From assembly GCA_034620365.1 (NCBI GenBank), contig JAQGEQ010000339.1, positions 620,001 through 684,000 of the forward strand: a stretch of DNA of 64,000 nt. Direction: 5' to 3'. Below the pieces are notes generated by a model, which saw nothing but the letters and a program-made list of their open reading frames with translations, had not been told where the DNA came from and did no database searches. This document shows, piece after piece, positions 164 to 59,840 of this stretch. A program made the position numbers and the translations under genes. Position 1 is the stretch's first letter; each line of letters opens with the position of its first letter. The stretch is from Pegea sp. RAD2-039. Its lineage: Eukaryota; Chordata; Thaliacea; Salpida; Salpidae.

Positions 164-688
164 AATTTCCGAAATGCTTTACGGCCGAGCACCAACATCC
201 ATGAACGATTAGAGATTGCCAAATCTGCTCTTACTAGCTCTTCTAGATCAAGATTAGAAGATCAAAGACTTCGTGATAGTAAACGAAGAACCTCTTCAGC
301 AAACAATTCCATAAGAGATGAAAACAGACAAAAAAGAAAAACACAAAAAAAGTAAGAGTCAGGTTAACTTAGGTTATACTTCTAGGGTTTTGATCACATC
401 AACAATTTTTGAGCAGACTCTCTTTTGAAGACGAGATTTCTGAAAATGGAAGATCATATGAAGACTCAGATGAAGAGGTATCTGTTGTTCCGTTTTCTTC
501 CAAGTTTTGAATTCTATTTTTAATCGATTTTACAAATATGTTCATTAAAAATTATTTTGATAGTTTAGTTTTTTATTATCTATTTTAACATATCTTTTAA
601 ACCTTTTCAGGATGATAGTGAAGATTACACTGAAAGTTCAGAATCAGAAAAAGATGTAACCTCTATCAAACCTAGAAAGCCGTGGTAA
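164..688 (+). CDS. C-terminal exons of an unidentified acidic/basic nuclear-type protein (partial, gene starts left of the window)
   Basis: Three exons join in frame: 164-351 (after a T-rich tract ending in tag), 417-477 (acceptor gagcag) and 611-688 (acceptor ttttcag), ending in TAA at 686-688. Donors are gtaaga and gtatct. Phases are consistent: exon 1 leaves 2 nt, exon 2 supplies 1 and ends in phase 0. The 108 visible residues are rich in Arg/Lys/Ser first (ERLEIAK, SRSRLEDQR, RQKRKTQKK). They then turn strongly acidic (EDSDEEDDSEDYTESSESE) and end in KPRKPW. Such basic and acidic low-complexity tails are common in chromatin or RNA-binding proteins, but I do not recognise the family. That the frame survives two short introns is good evidence for a real gene. 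Exons 2 and 3 are duplicated, with a stop codon, at 26350-26620 on the other strand. Confidence 0.75.
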
Positions 689-1180
689 TATTTTCTTTTC
701 GGTGTAATAAGCTGATATCTACACATATGATGTATCTTGTGATAATTAAGATAAACTTTCACACAATTTGCTTACAACCTTTACTTACACAAATTTGTGA
801 ATCGTTTTCATTATCGCTACTGTGTTTTATTATTTGAAACGGAACAATTTTCTTAAATAAGTTTTTACCTAAAAGCTTGCAACTATTTTTATTTGCAACA
901 AATTTTTAGCTGTTCTTATAGATTATGTTGATTTTAAATTTCCAGCTACAAAACATTTGTCTGTCTTGTAGTCCTTTTCTAGAAGTTGTACATAATAATG
1001 TCTTTTTTAAAAGTAATTTTTACAATTTAGGAGTTTATATTTGATTTAATCATGTTTCTAATCCATTTATTTAGATGAATTTTTTTATATGTTTTGTGGA
1101 TGACCGAAATCTTTACGTTTAAAATAGCTTAGTATAAATTATTTATTTCAAAGTATTTTAAACTTATAATCTGTCTAAAA
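355..1180 (+). repeat. Outer block A of the large inverted duplication (left copy)
   Basis: This block reads as the reverse complement of 25862-26675 with few differences over about 820 bp. It includes the last two exons of the gene at 164-688, its intron and about 500 bp of 3' flank. Similarity starts inside the intron after the exon ending at 351, so the first visible exon is not in the right copy. It ends near 1180. From 689 on it shows nothing coding. Confidence 0.9.
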
Positions 1181-2160
1181 TGACCAACAAATTCTTTGGT
1201 TTCTAAGTTTTTTGCATGATTTACTGTTTAAGACTCATCTCTTATTTAAAGTATGTAAGAGTGTACAGATAAATTGATGTGTGATTTATGATAAACAATC
1301 CAACAGAGACATCTTGTTCCATTTTTATCAGGATAGAATAGTTCAAAATATTCCTAAAAATGAGCCATAGTGAAAAAGATAACTAATTCTGTATTGCAAG
1401 AAGCTTATCTGCAACTGCATCCTTGGAATTGAAATGTTTTTAATCAAATAAAAACTTTTTAAAGAAATTAAAATACTACAAAAGTGACTGTTTTACAATT
1501 AGCTAAGTGCTTACCACAAATTCAATAAGTTTTTTGTATAAATATAATTTCCAACAATTTTAATCAGTTATTAACAGAAGTAAATAATTCATTTAAAAAA
1601 GCACCTCATTCTTACAAATTCTAATTTTTTGTTCTTGAACTGGATTTAAGCTTGTCAGAGAAATCAGTAACATCCAATATTTGGTACAACTTGCTTCTAG
1701 GACTTTTTGACCTGGCATCTAACAATATTGATTGACCTAATGCTTTATTTTTCAAATTCATCTTATCATTTTTAAGTCTATTATCTGAGCTTTCAGTTGT
1801 TGACAACAGTTTGTTTCTTTAATTATTTAAAAGATGCGTCTATTAAGTACAGCCGAAACTGCACCTTTAAATTGCTTGCTAACCCAATAATTTTGTTTAG
1901 AAGTACTAACTTATTTATATCAATTTAAGTTCGATTGATAAACATAGAGGTTGTTGTGTTTAATTCATAAAGTTTTATCTTTGAAAAATTTGAAGTTTAT
2001 TCAAAAAGCACTAGCAAAAGCAACTGTGGTAAAAACTTAGTCTTCTGTAGAATCAATTGAATCTTCCAATTTATGATTAACGAACGCTAGATCAGCTTAT
2101 AAGTAATTTAGTTAACATTAAGTAGTAACTACAGAGATCTTGTTGTTGAAATATGTACAA
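1181..2160. other. No recognisable gene (start of the left-arm insert)
   Basis: A+T-rich DNA with no supported exon. The 61-codon open frame at 1621-1806 (-) has no homology I recognise and no splice or promoter context, so I treat it as chance. This DNA has no counterpart in the right arm. Confidence 0.6.
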
Positions 2161-2176
2161 ATAATTCTATTAGTAT

Positions 2177-2449
2177 GGTTTATTTTGTTGCAATTGCGGA
2201 AAACGTTCGTATTGTAGTGGTTGTCACGCCCGCTTTGAGTGAGGGCGGGCACATATTTGCAATAAGGGAAAGTCCTTAAAAGACCCCGAGCAAAAGTGCC
2301 TCGTTAATCTAGTTGATGACAAAGTGTTTGGCAGACGCAAGACTCCGAATTTAAAGCCGGGGTTAGAGACTCGTAGGAAGTTTTATCACTGTACTCAGTG
2401 TCATCCTGGCATCAGTCCATATATCCCGCTGTATAATTTGTTAGCGTAG
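2177..2449 (+). pseudogene. Possible Cys-rich (zinc-binding-like) relic with one in-frame stop
   Basis: A locally G+C-richer stretch stands out from its surroundings. Read in the frame starting at 2177 it gives about 90 codons ending in TAG at 2447-2449, broken by a single TGA near 2240. The conceptual product has closely spaced cysteines (CCNCGK, YCSGCHARF, a lone Cys after the stop, then YHCTQCHPG), resembling a metal-binding treble or C-terminal transposase zinc module. I cannot name the family. It lies only in the left arm, a few hundred bases from retroelement relics, so a decayed transposon fragment is the most economical reading. Confidence 0.35.
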
Positions 2450-3404
2450 AGAGTATTGTTGTATAGGCAACAACCGGATTTCCACAATTTCTTCCCTGAC
2501 TTACTGCAAATAATAAATAACTTACTTTAATAAAAGATAAACCCTAAAATGACTGATACAAAGTGGTTGATACATTTTTACAGTTTTCTTTTAAAGTTTC
2601 TCCAGCTGTAATATTGCATATTCAAATGCAATTGAAAGATTTTCTTTATAAGCCCTAACAATCAAATCTTTTTAATTAAATGAGAACAGTTTGATTTTTA
2701 GAATAACAAGAAATATACTTTTTAAGTTTGTAAATATACATAATAAATGAGATTTTACTATTTTAATGCAAATATAAAACTTATAAGATATTTTTTAAGA
2801 TTCATTTTTTAAAGGTGTTTAAGCGGCGAAAGGGATTCAGGATTTAAGTCATTTGGCTAAACTCTATTCACTTTGAAAGCTTTGTTTTTAAATTTTTAGA
2901 CTTTTGCTGAAAGTTTACTTAATGTAAAATAACATACAAATTAAATTAAAAATTTTATTATATTTCTTAAATGGGTTGACTTTTTCTCCAAGCATAACTA
3001 CTGAAATCAAAAATTACACATAAAGGTAGATTGAAGAAAATAAGATAAATGCCTAATACAATTATTCTTTTCGTCAATTTGCGACTTTTTGGTTACAAAC
3101 TCATGTTGAGCAAGTCAAATGTTCAGTTAAATCAATTTGCTTTGTGTCCAAGCTAAAAATTATCGTTGTTGTTAGTCGGCTTAATAATTTGACTAAAGCT
3201 CGATAAAAATTTTCATTGTTATTACAATTTATTAAAATGTATTTCCTTGACGATTGGTTACCAGTTGTTTTGGTTTTATTCTAGCTTAGTGCTGTAAAAG
3301 CTTAGCAACGGTTAAAATAGTTTCTTTTTGCTATACCTAATATCGATTTAAATAAGATTCTGTTTGAATATGTGAATTTAGTTTTTTTTTTTTTTAAATG
3401 AACA
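2450..3404. other. No recognisable gene
   Basis: A+T-rich DNA. I see no exon, RNA gene or repeat that I can support. Confidence 0.6.
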
Positions 3405-3410
3405 CACTAT

Positions 3411-3590
3411 TTTTTTTTATATGTAAAGGAGTGTGCCTAAAGAGAGCACATCTCGCTAACATACATTCTCACGAGTTTTTTGGTTTTTCTCAGGAGTTTT
3501 ATAAATATGTGTCCACCTGGGGTCGAACCCGGTACTTCCTAGCTAGAAGATAGGTGTAGTAACGGCTTCGCCACCAAGCAAAGCAAAAAA
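3411..3590 (-). mobile_element. tRNA-derived SINE with a LINE-like 3' tail
   Basis: On the minus strand a tRNA-like head runs from about 3581 to 3509. It has an A-box (3573-3562, TGGCGAAGCCGT), an exact B-box (3529-3519, GGTTCGACCCC), a T-arm with four of five pairs, and an anticodon-like arm whose loop CTTCTAG would present TCU (Arg). The acceptor stem does not pair, so this is not a functional tRNA. About 35 nt downstream, 3472-3424 matches the conserved tail found at the 3' end of the LINE at 17393-19480 and of several other copies here. A tRNA head joined to the tail of a partner LINE is the classic SINE layout. An A-rich tract follows near 3411. Confidence 0.7.
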
Positions 3591-3601
3591 ATTTAAACCT
3601 A

Positions 3602-4320
3602 AAGTGCTGTCTATAGACCCGAATAGTGGCGTCACTAAAGAAAACTTTTACCAATTTTCTAAACAAGTTTATGTCAGATGGAAATGCTGAAGACAAGTAG
3701 ACTGCACTTGTTAATTTTTCAGCTCCAAACGTGTATGAATATTTTGAGAGCTGCCATACTTATGCAGAAACCCAGTGACGCTGGAACGGTTGTATGTAAG
3801 AAAACTAAATGAAATATTTGCGCGTCATCTACTGCGCACAGAGAAAGAGAAGCCAAGTCAATCTCTAGAAAAATTTTGGTTCACTTTGGTACATCTGACT
3901 AAGAATTGTGATTTTGAAGTACCACGGCAGCAGAACACAGGGATGGTATGATTAGGGATTCACTTATAAATGAATTATTCTCATCAGAATTCATTTATAA
4001 TAAGGAGGAAGCGGTGGCACATACATAAAATTGAACCATGCGATGGTAGATGTCTTTATTGTGAGCAAGGTAATTAAAGCTCTTATTAATATCCGATCAT
4101 CGAAGAGCTTTGAAAGTTGAAAAGTTGCTCGAAACTATAAATAAATAAATCTGTGAAGAAAACAGTACAGAAATATAAATGTGTTTGTCATGGGGCACCT
4201 CAGTGTAGAGGTGGTGTTTGGAAGGGACTTCCTTAAAGCTTATAAGAAGGTTGTGTTTGAGTTAGGAAATCCAAAAGAGGATTTAGTGGTTTTAGAGAAT
4301 TTTACACTAAAAATGTAACG
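3602..4320 (+). pseudogene. Degenerate gag-protease relic of a Ty3/gypsy-like LTR retroelement
   Basis: Reading across frameshifts and stops on the plus strand gives a capsid-like sequence between 3640 and 4010. It contains VYEYFESCHTYAE, then TLERLYVRKLNEIFARHLL and SLEKFWFTLVHLTKNCDF, which match the pattern of gypsy-type Gag capsids. Further on, about 4190-4318 resembles the C-terminal half of a retropepsin (VVFGRDFLKAYKKVVFEL). A possible decayed DTG/S-like segment lies before it, with its catalytic motif lost. At least two frameshifts and several stops rule out function. No LTRs, reverse transcriptase or integrase are visible. The SINE at 3411-3590 abuts its 5' side. Confidence 0.6.
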
Positions 4321-5369
4321 AAGAAACACACACATGACAGCTTCATAGAAAAATAAATAAGAAAAAAGGTGTGATGACAGCCAAGACCAGAACTGAGTCA
4401 TTCCAATAGGTAAAGTCACAAAGAATTATATGATGTTTGTGTTACAGTTAAAAGACATTCTTTTATTTCTGATTTAGCTTTTATGATTCTCTTATAAAAT
4501 AAAGAAAATCAATTTTTATCAGAATTTCTACTGGTACATTTACACCCTAATGTTAAGTAATGTTAATTAACAAACCAATTAATTATTTGAATAAAAATAT
4601 AGATGAAATATCAGAAATGTATCCATATCTCAGCTAGTAAATTATATTCAGGAAAATCATTAAAAAAAAACAACCCAAAAGTAAGTACACAAAAAAACCC
4701 ACATACAGAGCACATGTCGCCAGTACGAAATTTGAAATCAAGTTTATAAAATTAATTAAAATCTTTCAAACATACTACAAAAGCATATAAAATGATATTC
4801 TGCATTACAGTTCAAACATACCAAAGGGGTGACAACTGAAAATATTTTAAAACTATTATAAAGTTCTATAAATAATTTAGATTTATCATTTGATCCAACT
4901 ACAGTTTTAATTTCTTCCTAAAATTATTAGCACTGACCAAAACTACACAAATTTAGTTTTTTGCATAAGCTTTTTAGTATTCTTTATGATTAAATCTTAC
5001 AATTTTTTATCATTAAGAAGTAAACTCTTGCCAAGTGCTAAAAATAGCTAAATAAATAATCCTTTTATCCAATTGCAATCTTATTATAATTTTTTGTATC
5101 ATAAAAAAACTAAATAAAAATTAAACAATTGTTAAACATTTCAAAATGTTTTGAGAGGGTAAAATTTCTGACAATTTAGAAAAAAATTTTTAAGCAATAT
5201 TTTTTTTGATATATTAGGCCCTAAGAAAATTGCTTTTTGTTAAAGAAAATAGTATTATAGTCATAAGACTCATATAGTTTATTAAGTAATCAAAGAAAAA
5301 TCATAATCTAAATTTACTATTTCAAAGGTATATAGTGTTTCAATAGGCTTTTGCTAGAATTCTGTCTGC
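4321..5369. other. No recognisable gene (end of the left-arm insert)
   Basis: A+T-rich DNA with no supported feature. Unique to the left arm as far as I can see. Confidence 0.6.
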
Positions 5370-8300
5370 GTTGAGACTAAATCTTGTATTACTAGAATGG
5401 CCATTATCGAACCTTCCCTTTCTAAATTTTTCTTCTCTTAGCAGGGAGTGAGTTTTTCTAGCTAATTCTTATAATAAGTTTAAGTCTAAAATTGGTTTGT
5501 TTATAATATTCTAGAATGATTTTATTAAATGCTTTTATTTGGTATATGACAAACCTAATTACGAACAAGATTTATAAAAGCATTCAACATCTATAATATC
5601 TTAGTTATGTCTTTTATCTACATCTAATACGATTTTTTCCTGGATTTTATGGTCCTTAATGTTTTAAGCTAAAGTTGATATAATCTGAAACTATTTCCTT
5701 TTATTTTTCACTCTTTATATCATTAATATTCTCTGTAATTCACTGTTATCTATTTTAGGTGCTACCAAAATGCTAAGTTTTAAATATTTTTCTTTCTATA
5801 TTTCTAACTTTATTATAGATCATTGGTATTATTTGTGAGAATCTGTGTTAGTGAGAAGGACTTTCTTCTGGCACCCTCCTTCGCGTTTATTGTGATAAAT
5901 AAATATATTTCAATTCATGAAGATTGATTTGGTTGTTAGTTTATAATACTCTTAAAAATATTTCCATTCTTTGATTATTTTATAAACATACTTCTTTAAT
6001 TATATGAATTTTTATTATATGATTCTAGTTAGAATTAAATATCTATAAGTTAGTTCAGTTTTAGAATTTGATATCATGGTAATACTTTTTGATACTCTTA
6101 AGTTGCTTTCATGTATGGATTTTGATCTCTTTTAGATAAACATATTTAATTATAAATTAATTAGAAAGAATTTATGTTTGTTCAATTATACTTGATTGTA
6201 ATATAATTATTCATTTGTTTCTGTTTTTCGTTTAATTATATTTAAATAGTTTTTTAGGTTGACTAATGTATATTGCATATTAATTTATTAGTTTAATCTT
6301 TTATACTAGTACTTTGGATATATTTCCTTCTTATTTATACCAATAAAAGCAGGAAAACTTGTTTTAATGATAAAATTAATACTTTTGATAGTTTTTCACA
6401 TTTTTAAGAAAAATCTTATGTTAATTATCAAAGAAAATTTGTTGCTATTAATGATCATATTACCAATGATAAATATTATGGGAATAATTAAACTATAAAT
6501 AGCATATTTTTCTGATTTTTTTTTCAACTTCTTATGATCAGGTTTATAAGAAGACTTTTTTTTTGATTTTAACATTAAGACTAAAAGAAAATGACTGCAG
6601 CTGTTGTGATAAGACTAAGAAATCTCTCTAATGATGCTCATGCCCCACATATAAGAGATTTTTTCAAAGGATTATCTATTCCTGAAGGTGGTGTTCAAAT
6701 AATTGGAGGTGATGATGGAACAGCTTTTATAATATTTGGTTCTGATGAAGATGCCAGAAAAGCCATGATGCAAGATAACAAATATCTATGTGGCTCACCT
6801 GTAAAGCTAACTTTAAGTAGTCAAACTGAAATGAACAAGATTATAGAAGATAGTCAAAATGAGAATACAACATCTGGACAAACATCATCTGATGAATCAA
6901 CAAATCAGGCAGATTTGACTCCTACTAAGGTCCCAATCACCAAGCCAGCAGCTGCATTCAATGAAGATCTGCCAATAGAAAAAAATGGTGTTCAATTTAA
7001 GCAACAAGAAGAAACTTCAAACTGTGTAGAGATGACATTTCCTTGTGGACGAGTATCTGAGGCTGATTGTTATGTGTTCTTTGCTCCTCTAAATATTCAG
7101 TTTGTTAAGATTCATCCATCTATTGATGGATTATACCAAACTGCTGTGGTCAAGTTTTCTAATATTTATGAGAAAAGAGATGCTTTGAAAAAAGATGGAG
7201 CTATGCTTAGAAATATCCCGATAGCTGTATCAGCAGGTAGTGAGAGAGTGTGTGAGATAGGTCCACATAACCAAGCTTCAATTGCTGCTGCACCATTTAG
7301 GAACCAATTTGAGGTCTTTAATCAACATCCACCTGCTCCTGTTTCTTGGAGAATGAGAGAACCAATTATTAATCCAATGCCACCAAGAGATCTTTGTATT
7401 GAAATTTTTGGTCTTCCTCTCATAGCAACATATGATCTTGTTGGAAATTTTTTTGAGCTACCAAGGTATTTGAAGCAAGAAAAGCTGTTTATGGAAATGG
7501 GAGATAATGGTTGTAAAGGTTCTGCTTATATTGATTATGGTGGTGATATAATTGAGTTTGAAAGAGCTTTGTTAAAAGATAGAACACTTTTTACAAAAAA
7601 TGTGATTAGTGTACAACCAATAAGCCTACCAAGTATGGTTGAAGTTTTCCGATTGAATAAAGAATTTTATTTTAATCAGATCGATTATGAGAGAAAAGAA
7701 AAGGAAAAGATTAGTCGATTAGCTGGTACATCTCATAAGATTGAAAACTATCCACCAAGTCGAAAAGATTTTACTTCTAGCTCTTCACGAAAACATAAAG
7801 TTATAAACAAGTATAAAAGTGAATCTAAACAAGTTGAAAAAACAAATATTGAAACAGAACCATCAGTTTTGGTAAAAGCTTCAAATGAAGTTACAAAAGA
7901 AGTGAATACAGAGACAAATAAAATAGACATTAAAATAGATGAAGTTACAAAAAGTGATGAATTACCTAAAGTAAATGAAGATACAGCAGAGAAAGTTTCT
8001 GAGTCTGTTGAAGATACTAAAAGTCAAACAGAGATGGAAGCTAAGGTTGAGCAAACTTCTTCACCATCAACTGCTGTGTCTGATGAAGACAACCAAAAGA
8101 TCGAAACAAAATCAAGTCCAGAAGTTGCTCCTAAAACTGAAGAACCAAAAGCTGAAGTTCAAAAAACTCAACAAAATAGAAGAAAATTTTGTGTGAGATT
8201 AGCTAATGTTCCTTATCATGCATCTGAAGATGACATTCGAAATTTCTTTAGAGGAATTGCAATTCCACCTAATGGCATTACAATACTTAGCAAAGGTATT

Positions 8301-9165
8301 AAAAAGTCAGGACATGTATTTGTCAGATTCAACTGTGCTGAGGACGCTCATGAAGCAGAAAAGCATCATGAAGAAAATTTTATGGGAAGATCAGTTCTAG
8401 TTAAGACTAGTTATGTGCAGTATCTTAAAACAATTTGGGAACGAGTCATTGGCCCAGGATTCCCAGAAGATAAGTTTAATGAAGACGCTCATATTTCAAA
8501 TGTACCTTCTAGACCTCAAAGATCTATTATAGATGTTTTTTATGAGAAAATCAAACAGTATAAGATGACTTGTTTACATATACGAAATCTTCCTAGTTCT
8601 ACAGAAGAAGCTGATGTGTATGGAATGTTGAAGAAAGAGATGATAGGAGTGAGAAGAATTGATGTAATTAAAGATCATATCTATAGATGCTGCAAAGGAG
8701 AAGCTTTTGTCCAGCTTTATGAGGTTGAAGATTGTTATCGAGCAGTGGCACTTCATGAAAAATTACTTTTTCGAGGACATCCAATTCATTTTATTCCTAT
8801 CACTTTATTAGAGTTGAAGAAAGATCTAGAATCGATACTCCCTCCACCTAGAGCTGACACACTTTATAGAGATCAAGCTCATAGCTACCCTGTTCGTGCT
8901 GATGTTAAAACTGTCGATTATCCAAAAGAAACCAGTGCTTCAGTGTATGCCCCTGGCCCATATGGTTATTATGGCAAAAGACCACGTGTGGATCCTGGTT
9001 ACCCTCATTTAGATTATCAAGTTGAACCAAGACCAAATCCTATAGAACCTTATCCTGGTGTTGCAATCTCTGCTGATAGATTTAGGTCTTCTACTTCGCC
9101 TACTGAATCTACTTTATCAGCCACATCAAGAGCTGAAGCATTTGTTTCTCGTTCACCATCAAGTG
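5370..9165 (+). repeat. Inner block B of the inverted duplication (left copy), including most of the RBM12-like gene
   Basis: The block is inversely homologous to 20650-24220. The outer end (5370-5560) is recognisably similar but diverged. The 5900-6590 flank is nearly identical to its mirror. The gene body is mosaic, with near-identical and strongly diverged tracts. Similarity stops abruptly inside the coding sequence, after the RSPSS codons near 9165. Confidence 0.9.
5690..5915 (+). mobile_element. LINE 3'-end fragment (plus orientation)
   Basis: It matches the family 3' end: a TTTCTATATTTCTAACTT segment, then TTTGTGAGAATCTGTGTTAG, a hairpin-forming core and a terminal AATAAATA-type repeat. 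Its mirror copy lies at 23640-23880, so this insertion predates the inverted duplication. Confidence 0.75.
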
Positions 9166-9491
9166 AATATGCTCGAAAATATGCTTATCCTTATCCAGCA
9201 GTCACTGATTATCGTCAATCTTCTGAAGCGCTTCCTAAACACGTTTCCTCGACTATAAAAATGCTTAATTTAAGTTACAACGTCACACAAGAGGATATTA
9301 TGGAATTTTTCATGCATTATAATCCAATTCCCAAGTCTGTAAGGTTAGTTTATGATGGTCAAGGGTGTTTAACTGGCGAAGGTTTAATTACATTCACAAC
9401 TGCCGAAGCTGCTCAAGCTGCTGTAGAACATTTGGATGGTCAGATGTTTTTGCAACGAAAAATCAAATTAGAACTTGATCAAACTTGCTAA
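6591..9491 (+). CDS. RBM12: RBM12/SWAN-like RNA-binding protein, intact copy (966 aa, single exon)
   Basis: The first Met follows an in-frame TAA 9 nt upstream. The N-terminus (VIRLRNL, then a DIR-like helix, GLSIPEGGVQIIGGDDGTAFIIF, SSQTEMNKII) matches the divergent first RRM of RBM12. Six RRM-like modules are visible: about residues 5-80, 145-222, 269-345, 532-607, 658-738 and 886-965. A Lys/Glu/Ser/Thr-rich linker (about 385-525) and a Tyr/Pro-rich stretch (PYGYYGKRPRVDPGYP, about 785-830) separate them. Human RBM12 is of similar length and has its coding region in one exon. The product is presumed nuclear and RNA-binding; targets cannot be inferred. A poly(A) signal lies at 9575-9580. The paralogue at 20611-23088 points toward it across the spacer. 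This copy keeps the last RRM, so it is the likelier full-function one. Confidence 0.92.
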   Translation: MTAAVVIRLRNLSNDAHAPHIRDFFKGLSIPEGGVQIIGGDDGTAFIIFGSDEDARKAMMQDNKYLCGSPVKLTLSSQTEMNKIIEDSQNENTTSGQTSSDESTNQADLTPTKVPITKPAAAFNEDLPIEKNGVQFKQQEETSNCVEMTFPCGRVSEADCYVFFAPLNIQFVKIHPSIDGLYQTAVVKFSNIYEKRDALKKDGAMLRNIPIAVSAGSERVCEIGPHNQASIAAAPFRNQFEVFNQHPPAPVSWRMREPIINPMPPRDLCIEIFGLPLIATYDLVGNFFELPRYLKQEKLFMEMGDNGCKGSAYIDYGGDIIEFERALLKDRTLFTKNVISVQPISLPSMVEVFRLNKEFYFNQIDYERKEKEKISRLAGTSHKIENYPPSRKDFTSSSSRKHKVINKYKSESKQVEKTNIETEPSVLVKASNEVTKEVNTETNKIDIKIDEVTKSDELPKVNEDTAEKVSESVEDTKSQTEMEAKVEQTSSPSTAVSDEDNQKIETKSSPEVAPKTEEPKAEVQKTQQNRRKFCVRLANVPYHASEDDIRNFFRGIAIPPNGITILSKGIKKSGHVFVRFNCAEDAHEAEKHHEENFMGRSVLVKTSYVQYLKTIWERVIGPGFPEDKFNEDAHISNVPSRPQRSIIDVFYEKIKQYKMTCLHIRNLPSSTEEADVYGMLKKEMIGVRRIDVIKDHIYRCCKGEAFVQLYEVEDCYRAVALHEKLLFRGHPIHFIPITLLELKKDLESILPPPRADTLYRDQAHSYPVRADVKTVDYPKETSASVYAPGPYGYYGKRPRVDPGYPHLDYQVEPRPNPIEPYPGVAISADRFRSSTSPTESTLSATSRAEAFVSRSPSSEYARKYAYPYPAVTDYRQSSEALPKHVSSTIKMLNLSYNVTQEDIMEFFMHYNPIPKSVRLVYDGQGCLTGEGLITFTTAEAAQAAVEHLDGQMFLQRKIKLELDQTC

Positions 9492-9574
9492 TACTCCTTT
9501 TAACAACCTTGTTCTTTTTCAAATGATTTAAATTTTCATAAATGGTCTTTTTTCTAAAACTTTTATACTATTTG

Positions 9575-9580
9575 AATAAA
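9575..9580 (+). terminator. Poly(A) signal AATAAA of the left RBM12-like gene
   Basis: Canonical hexamer 84 nt after the stop codon at 9491. Confidence 0.55.
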
Positions 9581-12500: not shown

Positions 12501-12777
12501 TATAAGTTTTTAAGACTTGGTCTTGTTGGTTGATGAGTTTTACAGGTTTTGGCATCATATCAACAACTAGCTTTTAATTTAGTTTTGCATTTTAAGCGAG
12601 ATTTTAACTAGCTTGGCTGACCGAGTAATAAAATATTTATTTAGTGAAAGAAATGCTATATTACAAAATATTTAACTGTTGCAAAGTATGAAAACTAAAA
12701 TATTCTGATAAAGAAATTAAGTAATGAGAAATGCTCCGTAGCTTATTATATCGGTAGCCGTCAGAGCTAGTATATAA
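9581..12777. other. Spacer of the inverted duplication, no recognisable gene
   Basis: A+T-rich DNA beyond the duplication breakpoint at about 9165. It holds short A/T runs (for example 12160-12330) but no supported exon, RNA gene or transposon. Confidence 0.6.
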
Positions 12778-12855
12778 TTTAGTTATTTATTACAATAAAT
12801 GCGAAGGAGGGTGCCTAAAGAGAGCACCTCCCGCTAACACACATTCTCACAAATA
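12778..12855 (-). mobile_element. Short LINE/SINE tail fragment (minus orientation)
   Basis: A clean copy of the conserved tail: in plus-strand reading, aataaatgcgaaggagg, the hairpin GGTGC...GCACC, then cgctaacacacattctcac. No tRNA head or ORF remnant precedes it on the minus strand, so it is a solo tail. Confidence 0.7.
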
Positions 12856-13920: not shown

Positions 13921-13980
13921 GTTTAAAAAATTCATTTTGTTGAATCCATGGTAACGTGAACATTCATTTCTGTAAACGTT

Positions 13981-14070
13981 TCATTGAATAATAAATCTGA
14001 AACCTGGTGGTACTGCAAATACCATAATAAACCCAATGAATACTAAGGTTAAAAGGCCATGAGATATCAT
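13981..14070 (-). CDS. Small ORF encoding a signal peptide (29 aa), likely first exon of a secreted repeat-protein gene
   Basis: ATG at 14070 starts MISHGLLTLVFIGFIMVFA, then VPPGF. The pattern is a short polar start, a hydrophobic core of about 15 residues and an Ala at a plausible cleavage site. The frame runs to TGA at 13981. A donor within or just after it (for example at CCAG|gtttca) could join it to the DPYGSS units at 13765-13945 through an unusually short intron, but I could not find a junction that keeps the repeat frame. It sits between the main array and the degenerate block, both read on the same strand. Confidence 0.4.
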   Translation of the reverse strand: MISHGLLTLVFIGFIMVFAVPPGFRFIIQ

Positions 14071-14159
14071 CTTGTTTTGCTAATAATATTTTCATCAGAA
14101 TACAAAACAGCCCAGCTACAGAAAATCCCAAGTATAAAAGCCTTAAGAAGAAACAAATG

Positions 14160-16365: not shown

Positions 16366-16384
16366 AGTTTTTGTTGGCTATAAA

Positions 16385-17392
16385 GAGTTGTTTTGTAACT
16401 TGGAGCCACACGTTAAACAAATTGATAAATACTGTTTGTTTTTTTACAGTATTACATACTATTTTTTAAGAAATGGAGTCTAAAGTAAACTGTTGATTCT
16501 AAAAACCTAAGAATTTTGTCTAAGATGTACAAAAACGAAAGTTCAAGTTCATATTTCAGTCACAAAAGTTTTTTTCAGTGGTTTATTTTCTATTTTTCAA
16601 CCTATTCAAGTATATCAAGTGTTATAGCTATAATTTGAGAGATTTATAATCTTGCCTAAATATTTGTACTAATGAGGCAATAAAACACTCACACACAATT
16701 TTTGATATTTTTTTATAAAGATAATTGCAATGATACTTTCATCAAAGTATTTAATTTTAAAGTTGCTTTCAAAATCAAAACTTGAACATAAGACCCTTAT
16801 CATACTTTTACATCAAAGATTTTATTATTTTGCCATTATTCAAAACAAATTTTAAGTAATACATTTCTATAGAATCAAAATACATACTTAACAAAGCCTA
16901 ATAACAGGTAGGAACACAAAAGGTGCTTAGACGATAAAAAATATGATATTACATAAAATAATACAATATGAAAATTACAATATTACAAAATAGACAAGGT
17001 CCATTAATTATAACATTAAGTAACTAGGTAGAAAAAGGTAATTGCCAACTTAATAATAGCATTTAATTACAGAGATTATTTTTATTTCACACTGTCAGTA
17101 ATTTTCGACAAATCGTAAAATAATTTTTTATATAGAGAAACAATAGAAACTATTTAATGCAAAACAATAATATAAATCATTCAAATTATTTATATATTTT
17201 ACTGATAAGTATCAATTAAAGATAATTCCCTAAACAAGAACAACAACAACTTTAATCTAGAAAAGTTTCCAAATTATATGATCCAAGTCTAATTTTCCAA
17301 CCACTTTCAGATGTATATTTCTATCTCTTGAGATTTGAAATGTAAATAAAAAGTCAACAGTAATATACAATTTAAGTGTTGTTGAACATCAT
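16385..17392. other. No recognisable gene; region upstream of the repeat ORF
   Basis: Lies 5' (minus strand) of the repeat-protein ORF. I looked for a signal-peptide exon like that at 14070 and found none. A+T-rich otherwise. Confidence 0.5.
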
Positions 17393-17522
17393 TATTATTT
17401 ATTTCAATAAATGCGAAGAAGAGTGTCTGAAAAGAGCACCTCCCGCTAACACACCTTCGCACAAATAATATTTATTAAGTTAGAAATATAGAAAGCAAAA
17501 GATGTAGAACATTGCACATCTT

Positions 17523-18489
17523 AAGGTTTACAAGATAATAGCTTAATATCATCTGCATACACAAACACACTGACATCATCTACTGCTACTAGTTTTCTGA
17601 TGAGGCGTTCAATGAAAATTAAAAAGAGAAGGGAACCCAGAACGGAAACCTGAGGAACACCACTGGTGATTTGACTAGAAGTAGATAAAGATCTTTCTAC
17701 ACGAGTTTATTAGGTTGTACCTGATAAGTAATCTTCAATCCACTGAAAGATAAAGCTGTTGATTTTTAAGTTTTTCAATACAGTAATGAGCTTGTTGTAT
17801 GGGACAGAATCAAACGCTGTAGCAAAATCGAGATATATGATATCACAAAGAGTATTACTATCATAATGGGCTGTAAGCTTATTAAGAAAAGTGAGATGTT
17901 GAGTCAGGGAAGATCTTCGTTTTACAAAGCTATGCTGGACATCAGATATTAGATGGTGCTCCATCAAATGACTGGTCATATGATTGTGAATGATATGCTC
18001 TTCAGTTCTACAGGTAACTGAAGCAAGTGAAATTGGTCTGTAGTTAAGTGCAGTGTTTCTGGAACCCTTTTTATGAATTGGAAACATAATAGCTTTCTTC
18101 CAAATTTTTGGAACTCTTCCTCGCCCCATGTGATGTTAAAGAGTAGCGATGAAGGTAATATAAAGTAATAAAGAGGAAGTAGTTTTTCTTAAACTAAAAG
18201 CTGGGATCTGATCTGGGGTATTGGAAACTGGTGATTTTAAAGAAGAAAAAGCCTTAAATAGCATATCGACCGTTATGTCAAGATATATCATCTCAGAGAC
18301 ATTTGTGAAAATATCGGAGTAGGAGAGAGAAAGAGTATTGCCATCATCGGTTGTAAAAACGCTATTAAATTGATTGTTTAGCAACTCAGCTTTATTCTCT
18401 GGTTTCATCACAAGCTGGTCGCTGTTATCAAGCAAGGGAAGTAATTGAGATCTCGCCTTAAGCTTGCGATTTATGAAACCAAAATACAT
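17523..18489 (-). pseudogene. LINE reverse-transcriptase fragment (frameshifted)
   Basis: The segment 18489-18136 (MYFGFINRKLKARSQL..., KAELLNNQFNSVFTTDD) is the usual pre-RT region. A frameshift near 18133 leads into 18129-17710. That part carries WKKAIMFPIHKKGSRNTALN, NYRPISLASVTC and the palm motif A region YLDFATAFDSVPYNKL. After stops near 17707 the frame resumes with SGVPQVSVLGSLLFLIFI. The catalytic YADD box follows at 17559-17548 and the frame ends at 17523. Known CR1/Jockey-type RTs share this order. At least one frameshift and two stops make it inactive. Confidence 0.85.
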
Positions 18490-18710
18490 TTTCTTGCTAG
18501 GTGAAAACCGCTCTTTCTCTTCCCAAATAGAAGTTAGAAATAGGTTTCTTGTAAACTATACAAAGATCTTTCTACAGAGATTTGATGGAAGGGCCTTTGA
18601 ATAGAGTTTGATGGAAGAGAGTTTGAAAAAAGAAGATGTGGGTCTAGTGGTTTTTTGCCACTTTCATTTTTGAAAAACCTTGACAATTCTCAAGGCCCAT
18701 GATGGACCTC

Positions 18711-18815
18711 GAACTTTGTATTTGAAATCAGTTGGTTTGTTCCTTCTGATTTCGGTTATACGCCTCTCTTAGAAGACGCTTATTTTCTAAGCGATCATCT
18801 TCACACATATCTCTA
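18711..18815. repeat. Direct repeat within the LINE (copy 1)
   Basis: About 105 bp nearly identical to 19371-19475, both spanning the end of ORF1 (aatcagttggtttgtt... through gcgatcatcttcac). Spacing is 660 bp in the same orientation. Confidence 0.8.
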
Positions 18816-19354
18816 ATGCGCTCAAATTTTTTGTCAAGCCTTAGCTTATACAGCTTGGCAAGAAACTTGCGTTTGTCCCAACTTTCCTGAAAGGACACTT
18901 CCAACGGTCTTTGATGGTCTGAGCTTTTTTCTCCAAGTCTAGTGATTAATACCTTTGAAACGGCCACAAAATCAAGGCTTTGAGAGCACATTTGATTGAA
19001 AAATTTACTGTCATCAGTCTCAGAGACATTAAAGATGATGATATTGCTTTCTCTGTCTTCACGGTCTAAAGTGAGTTTTTTGTGCGTGTCGGTGACCTTC
19101 TTCGCAAGAAGCTGCACCATGCTAACATTTTTGTCGGAACCGGAATCACCGACCACCGAAGCCCATGTGATTGGTTTCTTTGTAGAGGCATCCAGTTCGT
19201 CCATTGATTTAGACAAACTAGAAATTTTTTCGTTGATTTTGGCAACATCGTTGCCAATTTCAGATTTAAATTTGACGATTTCAGCGGATACAGATTTGCT
19301 GAGGTCGGATAATAGGTTTTGATTAAAATTAGATGAGGGAACTGTTGTGTCCAT
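18728..19354 (-). pseudogene. LINE ORF1-like protein (208 aa)
   Basis: Starts MDTTVPSSNFNQNLLSDLSK. It has a predicted coiled coil (about residues 20-55), then a Trp-Ala-Ser-Val linker and an RRM-like segment with RESNIIIFNVSE, typical of CR1/L2-type ORF1 proteins, and a basic helical C-terminal part. Past the stop, the sense sequence reads FKYKVRGPSWALRIVKV, the usual ORF1 end, in another frame. The protein is therefore probably cut short by a frameshift. ORF1 proteins bind element RNA and act as chaperones. Confidence 0.65.
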
Positions 19355-19370
19355 GGTTCTACATTTAATA

Positions 19371-19475
19371 ATGAACTTTGTAGTTGGAATCAGTTGGTTT
19401 GTTCTTTCTGATTTCGGTTATACGCCTCTTTTAGAAGACACTTATTTTCTAAGCGATCATCTTCACGCATATAAA
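19371..19475. repeat. Direct repeat within the LINE (copy 2)
   Basis: Second copy of the ORF1-end segment at 18711-18815. It lies immediately 5' (sense) of the ORF1 start, so the element is partly tandemly duplicated or two insertions are nested. Confidence 0.8.
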
Positions 19476-19480
19476 GTAAA

Positions 19481-20610
19481 ATATTCTATGAGCGGACGTA
19501 ATATAATTAATAAATTTGTTCAATGTTTTTATTGGAGAAAATAGTTAGAAAATTTATTGATTTAGATGAGTAGGAATTTCAACTTATATTTAACAAACTT
19601 ATAGAATATATATAATGAACTGAAGTCACATTTTTATCCACTACAATTGTGTCACTTATTAACTTCAGTGTCATATTCCATACATTTGTAATTTGCTTTA
19701 TGGGATCTTTCAACTTTTTATTTGTTGCATAGGAGATGTTTTTCATTCAACAAACGTTTAATGTGTGATGAACTATTAATTCAATCGGAAATGAAAGAGT
19801 GGCTAGTGGAAGAAATCTTTAAATAAATTACTGAGAATTTGGATAAAACTGACACAGGTACGAAAATTTAGTTAATCATGTTGACTTTAATAGCTTTTTC
19901 AGTTTAATTTTGCAACACTAAACTTTGTTTACTATATAACCCGTACCAAGCAAAAATCCCCTAACTTGATCAAACAGCCAAGCTTTTGAAAAATTTAATT
20001 CTAAATAAACACTACAGGATAAGAAAGAACTTGAATACTAAGTCGCCAAGCAGTCTAGGTGCCGAAGTTTTCCTTATTCAGATAGAATTATTATTTTCTG
20101 TCTCTAGCATTGATGAAAAGTAAAAAAATGATACTAATTCACACCAAACTTTTATTTAGAAAACGAAAAATACATAAAAATTAATAAAATATATCTGATC
20201 GGATAAAAGCATGAAAACGTAAATACTTCAAAAAACATAAATAAAGTTCCTCAAAATACAAGATCAAACAATAAACATCAAAATTTCGTTGCAAAGTGAT
20301 GTAACGATTAAAAAAGTAATTCTATTAAAAATGCTACTTCAAATTAGAAGCAGAAACTAGAAAGAATTTACACCAAAATGTTGTAAAAGCTTTTTGGTAA
20401 AAAGCAAATCATAATTCAGCAATTGTCGAGTGTAGAGAGAGCTAATCTTCTCAACAATTGATTGATTGAAAGATAGAAAAGTGATCAGATTGAATCAGAA
20501 ATGATATAAGCAAAACAAAGTTTTCACTTGTACGTAATTATAAAGTGAATAAAGAAAATTTTAGTTGAAATCAGTATTTTAAATATTAGTTTAGAAAGAA
20601 TTTAAGGTAA
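19481..20610. other. No recognisable gene
   Basis: A+T-rich spacer DNA between the LINE and the right RBM12-like copy. No homology to the sequence downstream of the left RBM12 copy was seen. Confidence 0.6.
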
Positions 20611-23088
20611 TCAGTTACTAGATACGGAGTTAAAATAATGGGGAACATTTTTACTTGATGGTGAACGAGAAACAAACCTTTCAGCTCTAGATGTGGCTGA
20701 TAAAGTAGGTTCAGTAGATCTAAATCGATGAACAGCACCAGAATAGGTTGGTCTTGGTTCAACTTGATAATCTAAATGAGGGTAACCAGGATCTACACGT
20801 GGTCTTTTGCCATAATAACCATATGGGCCAGGGGCATACACTGAAGCACTGGTTTCTTTTGGATAATCAACAGTTTTAACATCAGCACGAACAGGGTAGC
20901 TATGAGCTTGATCTCTATAAAGTGTGTCAGCTCTAGGTGGAGGGAGTATCGATTCTAGACCCTTCTTCAACTCTAATAAAGTGATAGGAATAAAATGAAT
21001 TGGATGTCCTCGAAAAAGTAATTTTTCATGAAGTGCCACTGCTCGATAACAATCTACAACCTCATAAAGCTGGACAAAAGCTTCTCCTTTGCAGCATCTA
21101 TAGATATTATCTTTAATTACATCAATTCTTCTCACTCCTATCATCTCTTTCTTCAACATTCCATACACATCAGCTTCTTCTGTAGATTTTGGAAGATTTC
21201 GTAAATGCAAACAAGTCATCTTATACTGTTTGATTTTCTCAAAAAACTTATATATAGAACTTTGAGATATGAAATCAACAGAGGCTTTATTAAACCGATC
21301 TTCAGGAAATCCACTCCCTACTACTCGGAACCATAATTTTCTAATGTTTGCATCATCATAGACTGCCACTCTTATCAAACGATCGTATAATTTGGTCCCA
21401 TCTTGTTTTGCTGCTTCTTCTGCGTCTTCGGTTGAAATAAACCTGACTATCACATACCCAGTACTTCGTTTGTTATTACAAAGTACGGTAATACCATTTT
21501 TGGGTATAAAGAACATACGAAATTTCAGTCGAATGTCATCTTCAGATGCATGATAAGGAACATTAGCTAATCTCACACAAAATGATTTGTTATTTCGTGG
21601 AGTTTTTTGAACGTCAGCTTTTGGTTTTTTAGTCTTAGAAACAAATTGTGGACTTGATTTTGTTTCAATCTTTTGGTTGCTCTTATTAGGCATAGCAGTT
21701 GATGATGAAGAAGTTTGAACAGCGTTAGATTTCTTCTTTGCTAGATTTTGATCAGTATCTACCTTCGCTCTATTTGTAATATCAAACAGAGGGTTTCCAC
21801 CAAATAATCGTTTTGTTTGAATATTTGTTTTCTCAATTTGTTTAGATTCACTTTTATACTTGTTTATAACTTTATGTTTTCCTGAAGAGCTAGAAGTAAA
21901 ATCTTTTCGACTTGGTGGATAGTTTTCAATCTTATGAGATGTACCAGCTAATCGACTAATCTTTTCCTTTTCTTTTCTCTCATAATCGATCTGATTAAAA
22001 TAAAATTCTTTATTCAATCGGAAAACTTCAACCATACTTGGTAGGCTTATTGGTTGTACACTAATCACATTTTTTGTAAAAACTGTTCTATCTTTTAACA
22101 AAGCTCTTTCAAACTCAATTATATCACCACCATAATCAATATAAGCAGAACCTTTACAACCATTATCTCCCATTTCCATAAACAGCTTTTCTTGCTTCAA
22201 ATACCTTGGTAGCTCAAAAAAATTTCCAACAAGATCATATGTTGCTATGAGAGGAAGACCAAAAATTTCAATACAAAGATCTCTTGGTGGCATGGGATTA
22301 ATAATTGGTTCTCTCATTCTCCAAGAAACAGGAGCAGGTGGATGTTGATTAAAGACTTTAAATTGCTTCCTAGATGGTGGAGCAGCAAAATAAGTTTGGT
22401 TATGTGGACCTATCCGACACACTCTCTCACTACCTGCTGATACAGCTATCGGGATATTTCTAAGCATAGCTCTATCTCTTTTCAAAGCATCCCTTTTCTC
22501 ATAAATGTTAGAAAACCTGACCACAGCAGTTTGGTATAATCCATCAATAGATGGATGAATCTTAACAAACTGAATATTTAGAGGAGCAAAGAACACATAA
22601 CAATCAGCCTCAGATACTTGTCCACAAGGAAATGTCATCTCTACACAGTTTGAAGTTTCTTCTTGTTGCTTAAATTGAATACCATTTTTTTCTATTGGCA
22701 GATCTTCATTGAATGCAGCTGCTGGCTTGGTGATTGGGACCTTAGTAGGAGTCAAATCTGTCTGATTTGACGATTCATCAGATGATGTTTCTCCAGATGA
22801 TGTGGATGATTCAGATGAACTCTCATATTGACTGTCTCTAATAATTTTGTTCATTTCAGTTTGACTACTTAAAGTTAGCTTTACAGGTGAGCCACATAGA
22901 TATTTGTTATCTTGCATAATGGCTTTTCTGGCATCTTCATCAGAACCAAATATTATAAAAGCTGTTCCATCATCACCTCCAATTATTTGAACACCACCTT
23001 CAGGAATAGATAATCCTTTGAAAAAATCTCTTATATGTGGGGAATGAGCATCATTAGAGAGATTTTGCAGTCTTATGACATCAGTCAT
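20611..23088 (-). CDS. RBM12: RBM12/SWAN-like RNA-binding protein, truncated paralogue (825 aa)
   Basis: ATG at 23088 with the same upstream in-frame TAA as the left copy. RRM1-3 and the RRM5 region are almost identical to 6591-9491, synonymous sites included. The acidic linker is shortened and replaced, and RRM4 is strongly diverged (RLKFRMFFIPKNGITVLCNN against RNFFRGIAIPPNGITILSKG). The last RRM is absent: after RSPSS the reading frame runs into unrelated sequence (KNVPHYFNSVSSN) and stops. The frame is otherwise open for 2.5 kb, so the copy may still be expressed. The switch between identical and diverged tracts suggests gene conversion with the left copy or recombination with a third relative. 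It could also be a young pseudogene whose frame happens to be intact. Confidence 0.88.
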   Translation of the reverse strand: MTDVIRLQNLSNDAHSPHIRDFFKGLSIPEGGVQIIGGDDGTAFIIFGSDEDARKAIMQDNKYLCGSPVKLTLSSQTEMNKIIRDSQYESSSESSTSSGETSSDESSNQTDLTPTKVPITKPAAAFNEDLPIEKNGIQFKQQEETSNCVEMTFPCGQVSEADCYVFFAPLNIQFVKIHPSIDGLYQTAVVRFSNIYEKRDALKRDRAMLRNIPIAVSAGSERVCRIGPHNQTYFAAPPSRKQFKVFNQHPPAPVSWRMREPIINPMPPRDLCIEIFGLPLIATYDLVGNFFELPRYLKQEKLFMEMGDNGCKGSAYIDYGGDIIEFERALLKDRTVFTKNVISVQPISLPSMVEVFRLNKEFYFNQIDYERKEKEKISRLAGTSHKIENYPPSRKDFTSSSSGKHKVINKYKSESKQIEKTNIQTKRLFGGNPLFDITNRAKVDTDQNLAKKKSNAVQTSSSSTAMPNKSNQKIETKSSPQFVSKTKKPKADVQKTPRNNKSFCVRLANVPYHASEDDIRLKFRMFFIPKNGITVLCNNKRSTGYVIVRFISTEDAEEAAKQDGTKLYDRLIRVAVYDDANIRKLWFRVVGSGFPEDRFNKASVDFISQSSIYKFFEKIKQYKMTCLHLRNLPKSTEEADVYGMLKKEMIGVRRIDVIKDNIYRCCKGEAFVQLYEVVDCYRAVALHEKLLFRGHPIHFIPITLLELKKGLESILPPPRADTLYRDQAHSYPVRADVKTVDYPKETSASVYAPGPYGYYGKRPRVDPGYPHLDYQVEPRPTYSGAVHRFRSTEPTLSATSRAERFVSRSPSSKNVPHYFNSVSSN

Positions 23089-24220
23089 TTTCTTTTAGTC
23101 TTAATGTTAAAATAAAACTAAAGTTATAAATTTTATAAACCTGATCATGAAAAATTGAAGAAAAAAGTCATAAAAATATGCTATTTATGAATTATTGCTA
23201 ATTAGTCCCATAATATTTATCATTGGTAATATGATCATTAATTGCAACAAATTTTCTTTAAAGATTAATCTAAGAGTTTTCTTAAAAATGTGAAAAATTA
23301 TCAAAAGTAGTTTTATAATAACAGTTATATAATAATTATATAACAATCAAGTATAATTGAACAAATATAAATTCTTTCCAATTAATTTATAATTAAATAT
23401 GTTTATTTAAAAGAGATCAGAATCCATACATGAAAGCAACTTAAGAGTATAAAAAAGTATTACCATGATATCAGATTTATAAAATTCTAAAACTGAACTA
23501 ACTTATAGATATTTAATTCTAACTAGAATCATATAATAAAAATTCATTTAATTAAAGAAGTATCTTTACAAAATAATCAAAGAATGAAAATATTTTTAAG
23601 AGTATTATAAACTGACAACCAAATCAATCTTCATGAATTGAAATATATTTATTTATTACAATAAACGCGAAGGAGGGTGCCGGAAGAGAGTCCTTCTCAC
23701 TAACACAGATTCTTACAAATAATACCAATGATCTATAATAAAGTTAGAAATATAGAAAGAAAAATATTTAAAACTTATCATTTTGGTAGCACCTAAAATA
23801 GATAACAGTGAATTACAGAGAATATTAATGATATAAAGAGTGAAAAATAAAAGGAAATAGTTTCAGATTATACCAACTTTAGCTTAAGACATTAAAGGAC
23901 CATAAAATACATAAAAAAATTATAAATGTTAATAAAAGACATAACTAAGATATTATAGATGTTGAATGCTTTTATAAATCTTGTTTGTAATTAAGTTCGC
24001 CATATACCAAATAAAAGCATTTAATAAAATAATTATAGAATATTATAAGCAAACCAATTAATATACTAATATTTTCTAATAATTAATAATGAATGTAATT
24101 AATAAAAATATATTCTTTTCTAATTAGTGAGAAAAACTGACTTACTGCTAAAGGAAAACTTTGAAAAGGGAGGCCATCCTAGTTCAAGGTATAGTCTCAA
24201 CGCATTTAGACTTAAATTAA
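20650..24220 (-). repeat. Inner block B of the inverted duplication (right copy)
   Basis: Mirror of 5370-9165: most of the RBM12-like coding region, the near-identical 5' flank (23089-23640), the shared LINE tail and a diverged outer end. The breakpoint at about 20650 is inside the coding sequence. Confidence 0.9.
23640..23880 (-). mobile_element. LINE 3'-end fragment (mirror of 5690-5915)
   Basis: Same insertion as at 5690-5915, duplicated with the arm: tail core at 23655-23710 and the upstream segment containing gttagaaatatagaaag in plus-strand reading. Confidence 0.75.
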
Positions 24221-24600
24221 ACATAGGAATCTGCAAAAAAGATTAAGCAAACAATTCTAAAATATAAGGAACGCAGTTTTATGCATAATAACAGACATCC
24301 TCTCAACCTAGTCAGATAGGTATATCGAATGATCATGAAACACTGTAGAAGATTATAATAGTAATTTTAAATTATACTGTTTTTATGTTTTTTTAAATTC
24401 GTTATTTAACCATATGAGACTTGTTACTAAAATATTAATTTATTTATTGAAAATATCTATAAACTATCGCTAAAATGCGCTTTTAATGAATCATTTGAAA
24501 ATATGAGCAATTTTAGTTAATAATTGTCGTGAAAATCCTGAACCGATTACTCGTTCCCTATTTGTTTTTTGTAAGTATAACCTAGCTTCTATATTTGTAT
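24221..24600. other. No recognisable gene (start of the right-arm insert)
   Basis: A+T-rich DNA with no counterpart in the left arm and no supported feature. Confidence 0.55.
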
Positions 24601-24639
24601 TTTTTACCAAATTTCTCAACTATCTTACATATTTTATTT

Positions 24640-25045
24640 TGTAGCACTTTGTAGCTCCTTTCCCAAGGATTGAAAAATAGAGGATAAGGCGTCGCAAGCA
24701 TTAAAATCGAAGAAGATTAAGAAATAGCGACAGAAAGATAAGTTATATTGCTGTAATTTCAAGACTTTCTGGGAAGTAATCTCGCCGCACAACTAGTACT
24801 TGGAACCATCTGTAATGTCATTTCTAAACTGTAATTTTTGTTTCTCTTTTTTATATTATTAGCATTCTATGTAATTTTTCATAGTTATATGTCTTGGAGA
24901 CTACTGAAATGCCATCTGTTACATCTTTTTTTTTCTATATTTCTAACTTAACAAATGTTATTTGTGAGAATGTGTGTTAACGAAAGGTATTATCTTCAGA
25001 CACCCTCGTTTGCGTCTATTGTAATAAATAAATAAATTTTGAAAA
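24640..25045 (+). mobile_element. LINE 3'-end fragment with ORF2 C-terminal remnant
   Basis: From 24811 it aligns with the minus-strand sequence at 37633-37410: TTTCTAAACTG, TCTATGTAATT, a GAAATGCCA segment, TGTTACATCTTTT, TTCTATATTTCTAACTTAA, then the hairpin tail and AATAAATAAATAAAT end. Upstream, about 24640-24810 can be read with stops as the end of a CR1-like ORF2 (SSFPKD, then NFKTFWEV). It lies only in the right arm, so it inserted after the duplication or was lost from the left. Confidence 0.7.
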
Positions 25046-25861
25046 TAATAATAAGTCAATGCGGAAGTTTGGAAAAATCAATGCTGGCTTCGATTAACAT
25101 AGTACATTTTAGTGTGAAAAATTAATCAGTAGACCGCCCATCAATTCAAAATTGAAGATACTTCACCCTGATCACACGGGATCACAGGAAGTCAACTTGA
25201 ATATCTTTCTTTTTTCGTCTACTTTCCGAACTTTACGTTTAAATTGTAGTTTTATCTTGCTACGTATAAGACGATGTTAGGCAACTCTTTTAACATGTCA
25301 TCACTATATAAGCTAATTGTAAACAGCCATTTTTGTAGAGTTTACTTTATTAATTCCAAACTTTTGAAATAGAAAATACAGCTGCTGATAAAGTTAGTAT
25401 ATCAGGGAACAGAGTTATGTTTCTTACAATGAATTTATTTCTTCAAATTGTATATCCTACCAGAAACAATAAAATGTATTACTTTCATATGTTATCAAAC
25501 CCACGCAGCAATCTTCTTTAGATTTTGATTGCCCTTAATAAAACATAATTTTATAAATTCTTTATCATTTGTAATTTATTTTGAAAAACTTGCTGTAGAA
25601 AAACTATATGGAATAAGCTGTTTTACACATTTGTTCACTTATGAAAAGAGATGTATCTTAAAATGTAGTTTATTCAAAAAATTCAGCAACTACGAAAAGC
25701 TTAGACTACCAAATACAGGTTCAGCTAAAGTTTTCAGTTGAATTTCCAAATTAATTGATAATGAACCTAAACATAAATGACCATAAAATTTGTTATTATT
25801 TACATAAAATTATTTCCCTTTTTTAAGTTAAAAGATTAAAAATATTATTAAACCATCTATT
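25046..25861. other. No recognisable gene (end of the right-arm insert)
   Basis: Nothing supported. The 70-codon open frame at 25529-25741 (+) has no recognisable homology. Confidence 0.55.
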
Positions 25862-26675
25862 AGACATGTTATAAGTTTAAAATACTTTGAAATAAATAAT
25901 TTATACTAAGCTATTTTAAACGTAAAGATTTCGGTCATCCATAAAACATATAAAAAAATTCATCTAAATAAATGGATTAGAAACATGATTAAATCAAATA
26001 TAAACTCCTAAATTGTAAAAATTACTTTTAAAAAAGACATTATTATGTACAACTTCTAGAAAAGGACTACAAGACAGACAAATGTTTTGTAGCTGGAAAT
26101 TTAAAATCAACATAATCTATAAGAACAGCTAAAAATTTGTTGCAAATAAAAATAGTTGCAAGCTTTTAGGTAAAAACTTATTTAAGAAAATTGTTCCGTT
26201 TCAAATAATAAAACACAGTAGCGATAATGAAAACGATTCACAAATTTGTGTAAGTAAAGGTTGTAAGCAAATTGTGTGAAAGTTTATCTTAATTATCACG
26301 AGATACATCATATGTGTAGATATCAGCTTATTAAACCGAAAAGAAAATATTACCACGGCTTTCTAGGTTTGATAGAGGTTACATCTTTTTCTGATTCTGA
26401 ACTTTCAGTGTAATCTTCACTAGCATCCTGAAAAGGTTTAAAAGATATGTTAAAATAGATAATAAAAAACTAAACTATCAAAATAATTTTTAATGAACAT
26501 ATTTATAAAATCGATTAAAAATAGAATTCAAAATTGGAAGAAAACGGAACAACAGATACCTCTACATCTGAGTCTTCCTATGATCTTCCATTTTCAGAAA
26601 TCTCGTCTTCAAAAGAGAGTCTGCTCAAAAAATGTTGATGTGATCAAAACCCTAGAAATATAACCTAAGGTAAGT
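25862..26675 (-). repeat. Outer block A of the inverted duplication (right copy)
   Basis: Near-identical reverse complement of 355-1180, including the intron between the last two exons of the gene tail. Confidence 0.9.
26350..26620 (-). pseudogene. Duplicated tail of the 164-688 gene, disabled
   Basis: Exon copies at 26620-26560 and 26427-26350 keep both splice-site sequences. The first has TAG at 26580-26578 where the left copy has a Tyr codon. The preceding exon (164-351 in the left copy) is not duplicated. The copy thus lacks upstream exons and has a stop, so it is a pseudogene. A GAT-to-GCT change (Asp to Ala) is also seen in the last exon. Confidence 0.8.
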
Positions 26676-59801: not shown

Positions 59802-59840
59802 GGTTTTGAAAATCTGTGAATTGTAAACTTTTTCAATCAC

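Follow-up and report, generated by a model that had tools for sequence, protein, structure and literature searches.

An old-looking inverted duplication of an RBM12-like gene in the salp Pegea sp., with near-identical tracts around one divergent RNA-recognition motif

Comparison with described gene pairs and palindromes

The human L/M opsin genes lie about 24 kb apart and have a divergence peak in exon 5, for which there is functional proof, and selection for difference has been argued to keep this stretch out of conversion (PMC3924837). BMP8A and BMP8B evolve in concert as an inverted pair whose members lie about 235 kb apart, and each is a full-length gene of seven exons (PMC2720389). The palindromes of mammalian X chromosomes have arms that are described as more than 99% identical (PMC8981503). 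Here we describe a large inverted repeat in the salp Pegea sp. RAD2-039, in which two RBM12-like genes, gene A and gene B, lie on opposite arms. It was found in a window of 64,000 nucleotides, by which we mean the whole stretch of DNA analyzed (contig JAQGEQ010000339.1, here C39, positions 620001-684000; GC content 28.9%), from an assembly of 105.7 Mb in 387 contigs. Our analysis points to an old inverted duplication that was patchily overwritten by arm-to-arm gene conversion, with one RNA-recognition motif (RRM) and the outer flanks escaping; we give this reading a probability of roughly 85%.

Like the human opsins, the RBM12-like pair appears to consist of duplicates homogenized by conversion, with a divergence peak in one functional stretch. 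Unlike the opsins, this pair stands in inverted orientation, much of its coding sequence falls within the low-divergence tracts, its divergent island is near silent saturation, and the case is drawn from sequence. With BMP8A/BMP8B, the pair shares the inverted orientation and high-identity stretches of the kind ascribed to gene conversion, but its arms are only 11.4 kb apart and one copy is truncated. With the X-chromosome palindromes, the locus shares inverted arms around a spacer and apparent homogenization from arm to arm, but its identity is patchy: the trait of sex-chromosome palindromes, arms nearly identical throughout, was not found here, because identity ranges from 52% to 100% per 100 columns and unrelated inserts interrupt the arms. 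Contig C39 has no assignment to a chromosome, and nothing was seen that speaks for or against sex linkage. Cruciform formation seems unlikely with a spacer of this length. Conversion with a divergence peak is a known process, of which this locus is a clear new example. Our literature search returned no match for RBM12 duplication in invertebrates, and the same was true for rotifer genome palindromes.

An inverted repeat with mosaic divergence

The locus is an inverted partial duplication. Self-BLAST of the window mapped four inverted pairs: 332-1178/26704-25860 (849 columns, 97.3%), 5490-6211/24059-23331 (94.0%), 6380-7873/23309-21799 (93.4%), and 8020-9219/21749-20600 (80.5%). They stand in mirror order and form two blocks, block 1 (A332-1178/B26704-25860) and block 2 (A5490-9219/B24059-20600), around a spacer at 9220-20599. 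The mirrored, collinear blocks of a first-pass annotation of this DNA are thus borne out, as is its proposal that each arm carries its own insert: 1179-5489 in arm A, whose last 250 bp are faintly collinear with arm B, and 24060-25859 in arm B, both with dispersed repeats. Between the second and third pairs, the arm A stretch 6212-6379 has almost no counterpart in arm B. Across 164 kb (C39:560001-724000), self-comparison for matches of 150 bp or more (E ≤ 1e-10, dust on, with rows within a minisatellite dropped) showed no further mirrored block. Four of the 23 self-matches listed are the inverted repeat itself, and the other 19 involve dispersed repeats, which look like one retroelement or repeat family. 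We also considered block 1 as a transposon and rejected this, since it has two matches in the assembly among the best candidates scored.

Gene A (6591-9491, plus strand) is a single open frame of 966 codons with three Pfam RRM_1 stretches, and gene B (20611-23088, minus strand) has 825 codons plus a stop; their 5′ flanks, 5490-6590 (plus) and 23089-24059 (minus), are counterparts of each other. The RRMs of gene A match solved hnRNP H/F and RBM12 domains (2cqp, 2ek1, 2cpy); the best solved match of the whole gene is hnRNP H and that of its last RRM is RBM12. With several RRMs related to RBM12 domains in gene A, the pair may be called RBM12-like, a name that is based on domain matches and that does not imply orthology to RBM12 over other RRM genes. 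Their convergent orientation is as first annotated. Set beside RBM12 and hnRNP F/H-type proteins, whose solved domains the RRMs of the locus match, gene B is without the last RRM: its stop falls before the counterpart of that domain in gene A. No credible remnant of the domain was found by tblastn between gene A and the stop of gene B. The sole match (E 0.52, minus strand, about 18830-19114) lies within a retroelement stretch and was taken as chance.

The near identity of the arms noted in the first-pass annotation exists in places, but it is not uniform. Within block 2, 351 of 3425 aligned columns differ, and identity per 100 columns steps abruptly between 100% and 52%. The longest identical run in this block is 210 columns, and since 5000 permutations of the mismatches gave no run above 130, chance is excluded. 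A three-state hidden Markov model segmentation gave identities of 97.0 to 99.5% at A5679-6211, 6643-6838, 6910-7152, 7314-7850, and 8598-9049, and of 54% at A8241-8537 (plus strand in gene A). This last stretch, which we call the island, is one RRM; relative to gene B, 45.5 of its 60.3 silent sites (75%) and 40% of its replacement sites are changed, whereas silent changes amount to 14.0/264.5 at 6591-7850 and 4.0/98.0 at 8598-9049. Several windows of 30 codons have no silent difference at all and lie beside windows at 65-90%; the highest silent divergence per 30 codons is 0.96, compared with at most 0.69 in 5000 permutations. Fourfold sites behave in the same way, 11 of 17 differing in 8226-8507 versus 6 of 206 in the tracts, with 45 of the 268 sites, holding 3 differences, in neither class; the Fisher value of 1e-10 for this contrast is descriptive only, as the classes were drawn after the profile had been seen.

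The likeness extends to sequence outside the genes. The 5′ flanks of both arms hold an old interspersed repeat of 210 bp (5700-5910 and 23641-23851), and these two copies are 97.6% alike, but their likeness to two further copies within the window, at 24835-25039 (in the arm B insert) and 37406-37606, is 75-77%; the search for this repeat with the arm B insert scored the best 40 of 2129 first-look candidates. Block 1 has 17 mismatches in 843 aligned bases, and within it lies the longest exact match between the arms, 357 bp at A739-1095. The pair has what is expected of a conversion pair, namely sharp tracts of near-identity that extend to silent and non-coding sites and adjoin old divergence.

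Block 1 belongs to the end of a FAM92/CIBAR gene. The first-pass annotation had spoken of duplicated neighbors, and this gene is indeed one, but its duplication is limited to the last two exons and the 3′ flank. Upstream of block 1 (L022:7225-9686), six open stretches match Pfam FAM92, covering profile positions 13-224 in order; three pass the family cut-off, and the remaining three have E values of 0.004 to 0.026. The open stretch at window positions 164-355 has no Pfam match itself. It is followed, after position 351, by a donor-like site at 352, and the two short exons in block 1 (about 416-477 and 611-688, plus strand) are marked by splice-like sites and by frame. From these signals, the gene is probably completed by the stretch 164-351 and the two exons, the second of which ends at 688. 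Arm A of block 1 (332-1178, plus) thus holds the last two exons with an intron and the 3′ flank, and arm B (25860-26704, minus) holds only a tail fragment of two exons with a premature stop, and the 3′ flank. The 357-bp exact match lies beyond the FAM92 stop codon, and the fragment in arm B is broken; therefore, selection on the protein does not explain the identity of this tract. Because both ends of arm A are complete, gene A is likely the parent copy and gene B a truncated, inverted copy of it.

The truncated paralogue, gene B, is probably still functional. The 94 aligned codons of its island are still open though near silent saturation, and the island stretch scores as an RRM in both genes, with an E value of 1.2e-8 in gene B and 1.7e-5 in gene A. 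The RRM of gene B resembles solved hnRNP H domains less closely than that of gene A does (best E 1e-6 versus 2.9e-11). This greater distance argues against a clear adaptive story, and faster drift may account for it.

Proposed history and competing explanations

In the history we propose, a segment from the FAM92/CIBAR intron to near the end of the RBM12-like gene would have been copied, inverted, downstream of the original, long enough ago for silent sites left alone to be near saturation now. Gene conversion between the inverted arms would then have acted in several tracts, probably not all of one date, and replaced the outer block, the 5′ flank, and the greater part of the coding sequence. 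The true age would show in what escaped, namely one RRM, the 3′ end, and the outer flanks. Beyond block 2, A5241-5342/B24446-24336 and A5367-5467/B24204-24122 are collinear at 68-69%; the second of these, at 69%, agrees with the block start near 5370 that had been annotated. When A4990-5489 was used as a query against the 164 kb, these two flank stretches were the best non-self matches listed (E 8.7e-7 each, the next being 0.005). Such collinearity suits an old duplication. With silent sites close to saturation in one RRM and an outer flank just 68-69% alike, the duplication appears to be old, and recency is not supported as the sole cause of the identity. Of the two options in the first-pass annotation, recent or homogenized, it is homogenization that fits the patchwork.

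Several points weigh against this reading. The flank matches cover short stretches, of 111 and 101 columns, and a search with the whole arm A insert puts them in sixth and seventh place among 82; of the five matches ahead of them, four hit one dispersed repeat and the fifth is an unassigned stretch, A2349-2413. The tracts are not all recent, the pooled silent divergence being 5% and 4%. Conversion would be deduced here from pattern alone. Finally, a different donor of the island could be lost or unassembled, and the searches of the genome score best candidates only.

This last point is the basis of another explanation, a recent inverted duplication after which the RRM of gene B was taken from a distant third paralogue. 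Such an import would likewise leave a saturated island amid near-identity, and its donor could lie outside the assembly. We nevertheless regard it as improbable. In the 105.7-Mb assembly, no third RBM12-like paralogue was found among the best candidates scored: apart from gene A itself, a query with gene A gave gene B, split into two pieces, and a single weak match, located on C32 (34% over amino acids 4-94, E 1.8e-11). The island of gene B returned itself, the RRM of gene A (E 9.2e-28), and then matches at 0.108, 0.35, and 0.587, the last being gene B's own first RRM. Hence none of the 5 matches at E ≤ 1 is a better relative, or a better donor, than gene A. The island also aligns gap-free with the RRM of gene A over most of its length, and one import into the gene leaves the divergent flank unexplained. 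Still less probable is that two haplotypes of one locus were joined head to head, an allelic misassembly that had already been judged unlikely. Among the best candidates scored in the assembly, a 2.4-kb flank stretch has a single match, and so no second haplotype is visible at the flank. Saturated silent divergence in one RRM, an arm truncated at both ends, and a broken FAM92 tail are likewise at odds with alleles, and a longest exact match of 357 bp would be easily resolved by long reads.

The linker preceding the island (A7850-8240) bears on a further possibility, that the duplication is recent and one RRM of gene B then underwent rapid adaptive change. Replacement differences in the linker far exceed silent ones (56.5/226.2 versus 7.5/64.8 sites changed), as adaptive change would suggest, and its silent divergence is intermediate between that of the tracts and that of the island. 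The net charge over amino acids 421-533 is −10 in gene A and +12 in gene B, and selection could have favored a basic linker. The linker is, however, partly gapped and poorly aligned. In its ungapped part (amino acids 489-533), with gene A taken as the starting state, G>A and C>T make up 12 of the 24 changes, and GC content at third positions is only 19-21%; therefore, AT-biased mutation could inflate the replacements. Within the RRM, change is greater at silent sites (75%) than at replacement sites (40%), and positive selection on a protein does not saturate silent sites. The adaptive explanation is thus contradicted, and we hold it to be very unlikely. Least credible of all is an old duplication in which extreme purifying selection at the nucleotide level keeps tracts identical. 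Some of the tracts are coding, but the longest exact one comes after the stop of the FAM92 tail, which arm B carries only as a broken fragment, and the old repeat is far more alike between the arms than to its other copies.

Returning to an old duplication overwritten by conversion, we may ask what kept the island out. Since conversion depends on local similarity, it tends to pass over a stretch that has diverged. Low similarity and selection for difference would both have this effect, and our data do not separate them. It is a tentative idea, and one that we rather doubt, that selection shields the diverged RRM of gene B from conversion while conversion from gene A renews the remaining protein.

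Neighboring features and significance

The spacer holds a minus-strand array of 65 units of 33 bp (14207-16363), retroelement fragments, and other repeats. The array is open on the minus strand for 706 amino acids, in 11-residue repeats like SDPYGSSAGTG, and its variability by codon position (0.133, 0.074, 0.151) is as expected for coding sequence, though not proof of it. A related array, up to 91% alike and in the opposite orientation, is present at C39:844011-846495 (L041:11-2495). The fragments at 17523-19417 (minus) are of the non-long-terminal-repeat type with a reverse transcriptase domain, and they match no fewer than 39 other places in the genome, the best 40 of 4046 first-look candidates having been scored. 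Elsewhere in the window are a forkhead-type gene at 29075-30718 (plus), its domain split between open stretches and with a single match in the assembly; a coiled-coil gene at 42309-45678 (minus), which we presume to resemble the ciliary protein FBF1; a 926-amino-acid open frame at 51997-54777 (plus) in which LDL-receptor class A repeats are joined to a seven-transmembrane receptor domain; and a 361-amino-acid open frame at 58758-59843 (minus), membrane-like by eye and with no Pfam match. A gelsolin-repeat gene was also identified by domain search. Together with the FAM92 gene, the forkhead-type gene, and the LDL-receptor class A/seven-transmembrane frame, some of these genes having several exons, it points to animal DNA. 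No known structured RNA or tRNA was reported in the window, ARAGORN having been run with the bacterial code.

As we read it, this gene pair shows conversion making an old duplicate look recent, and an average distance over the whole gene would misdate the duplication. The sharp island singles out a domain whose difference may matter, and it makes the idea of a divergence peak testable in an RNA-binding protein. If selection does shield the island, gene B would be a modular paralogue, in which one RRM and a more basic linker would give new specificity on a borrowed scaffold.

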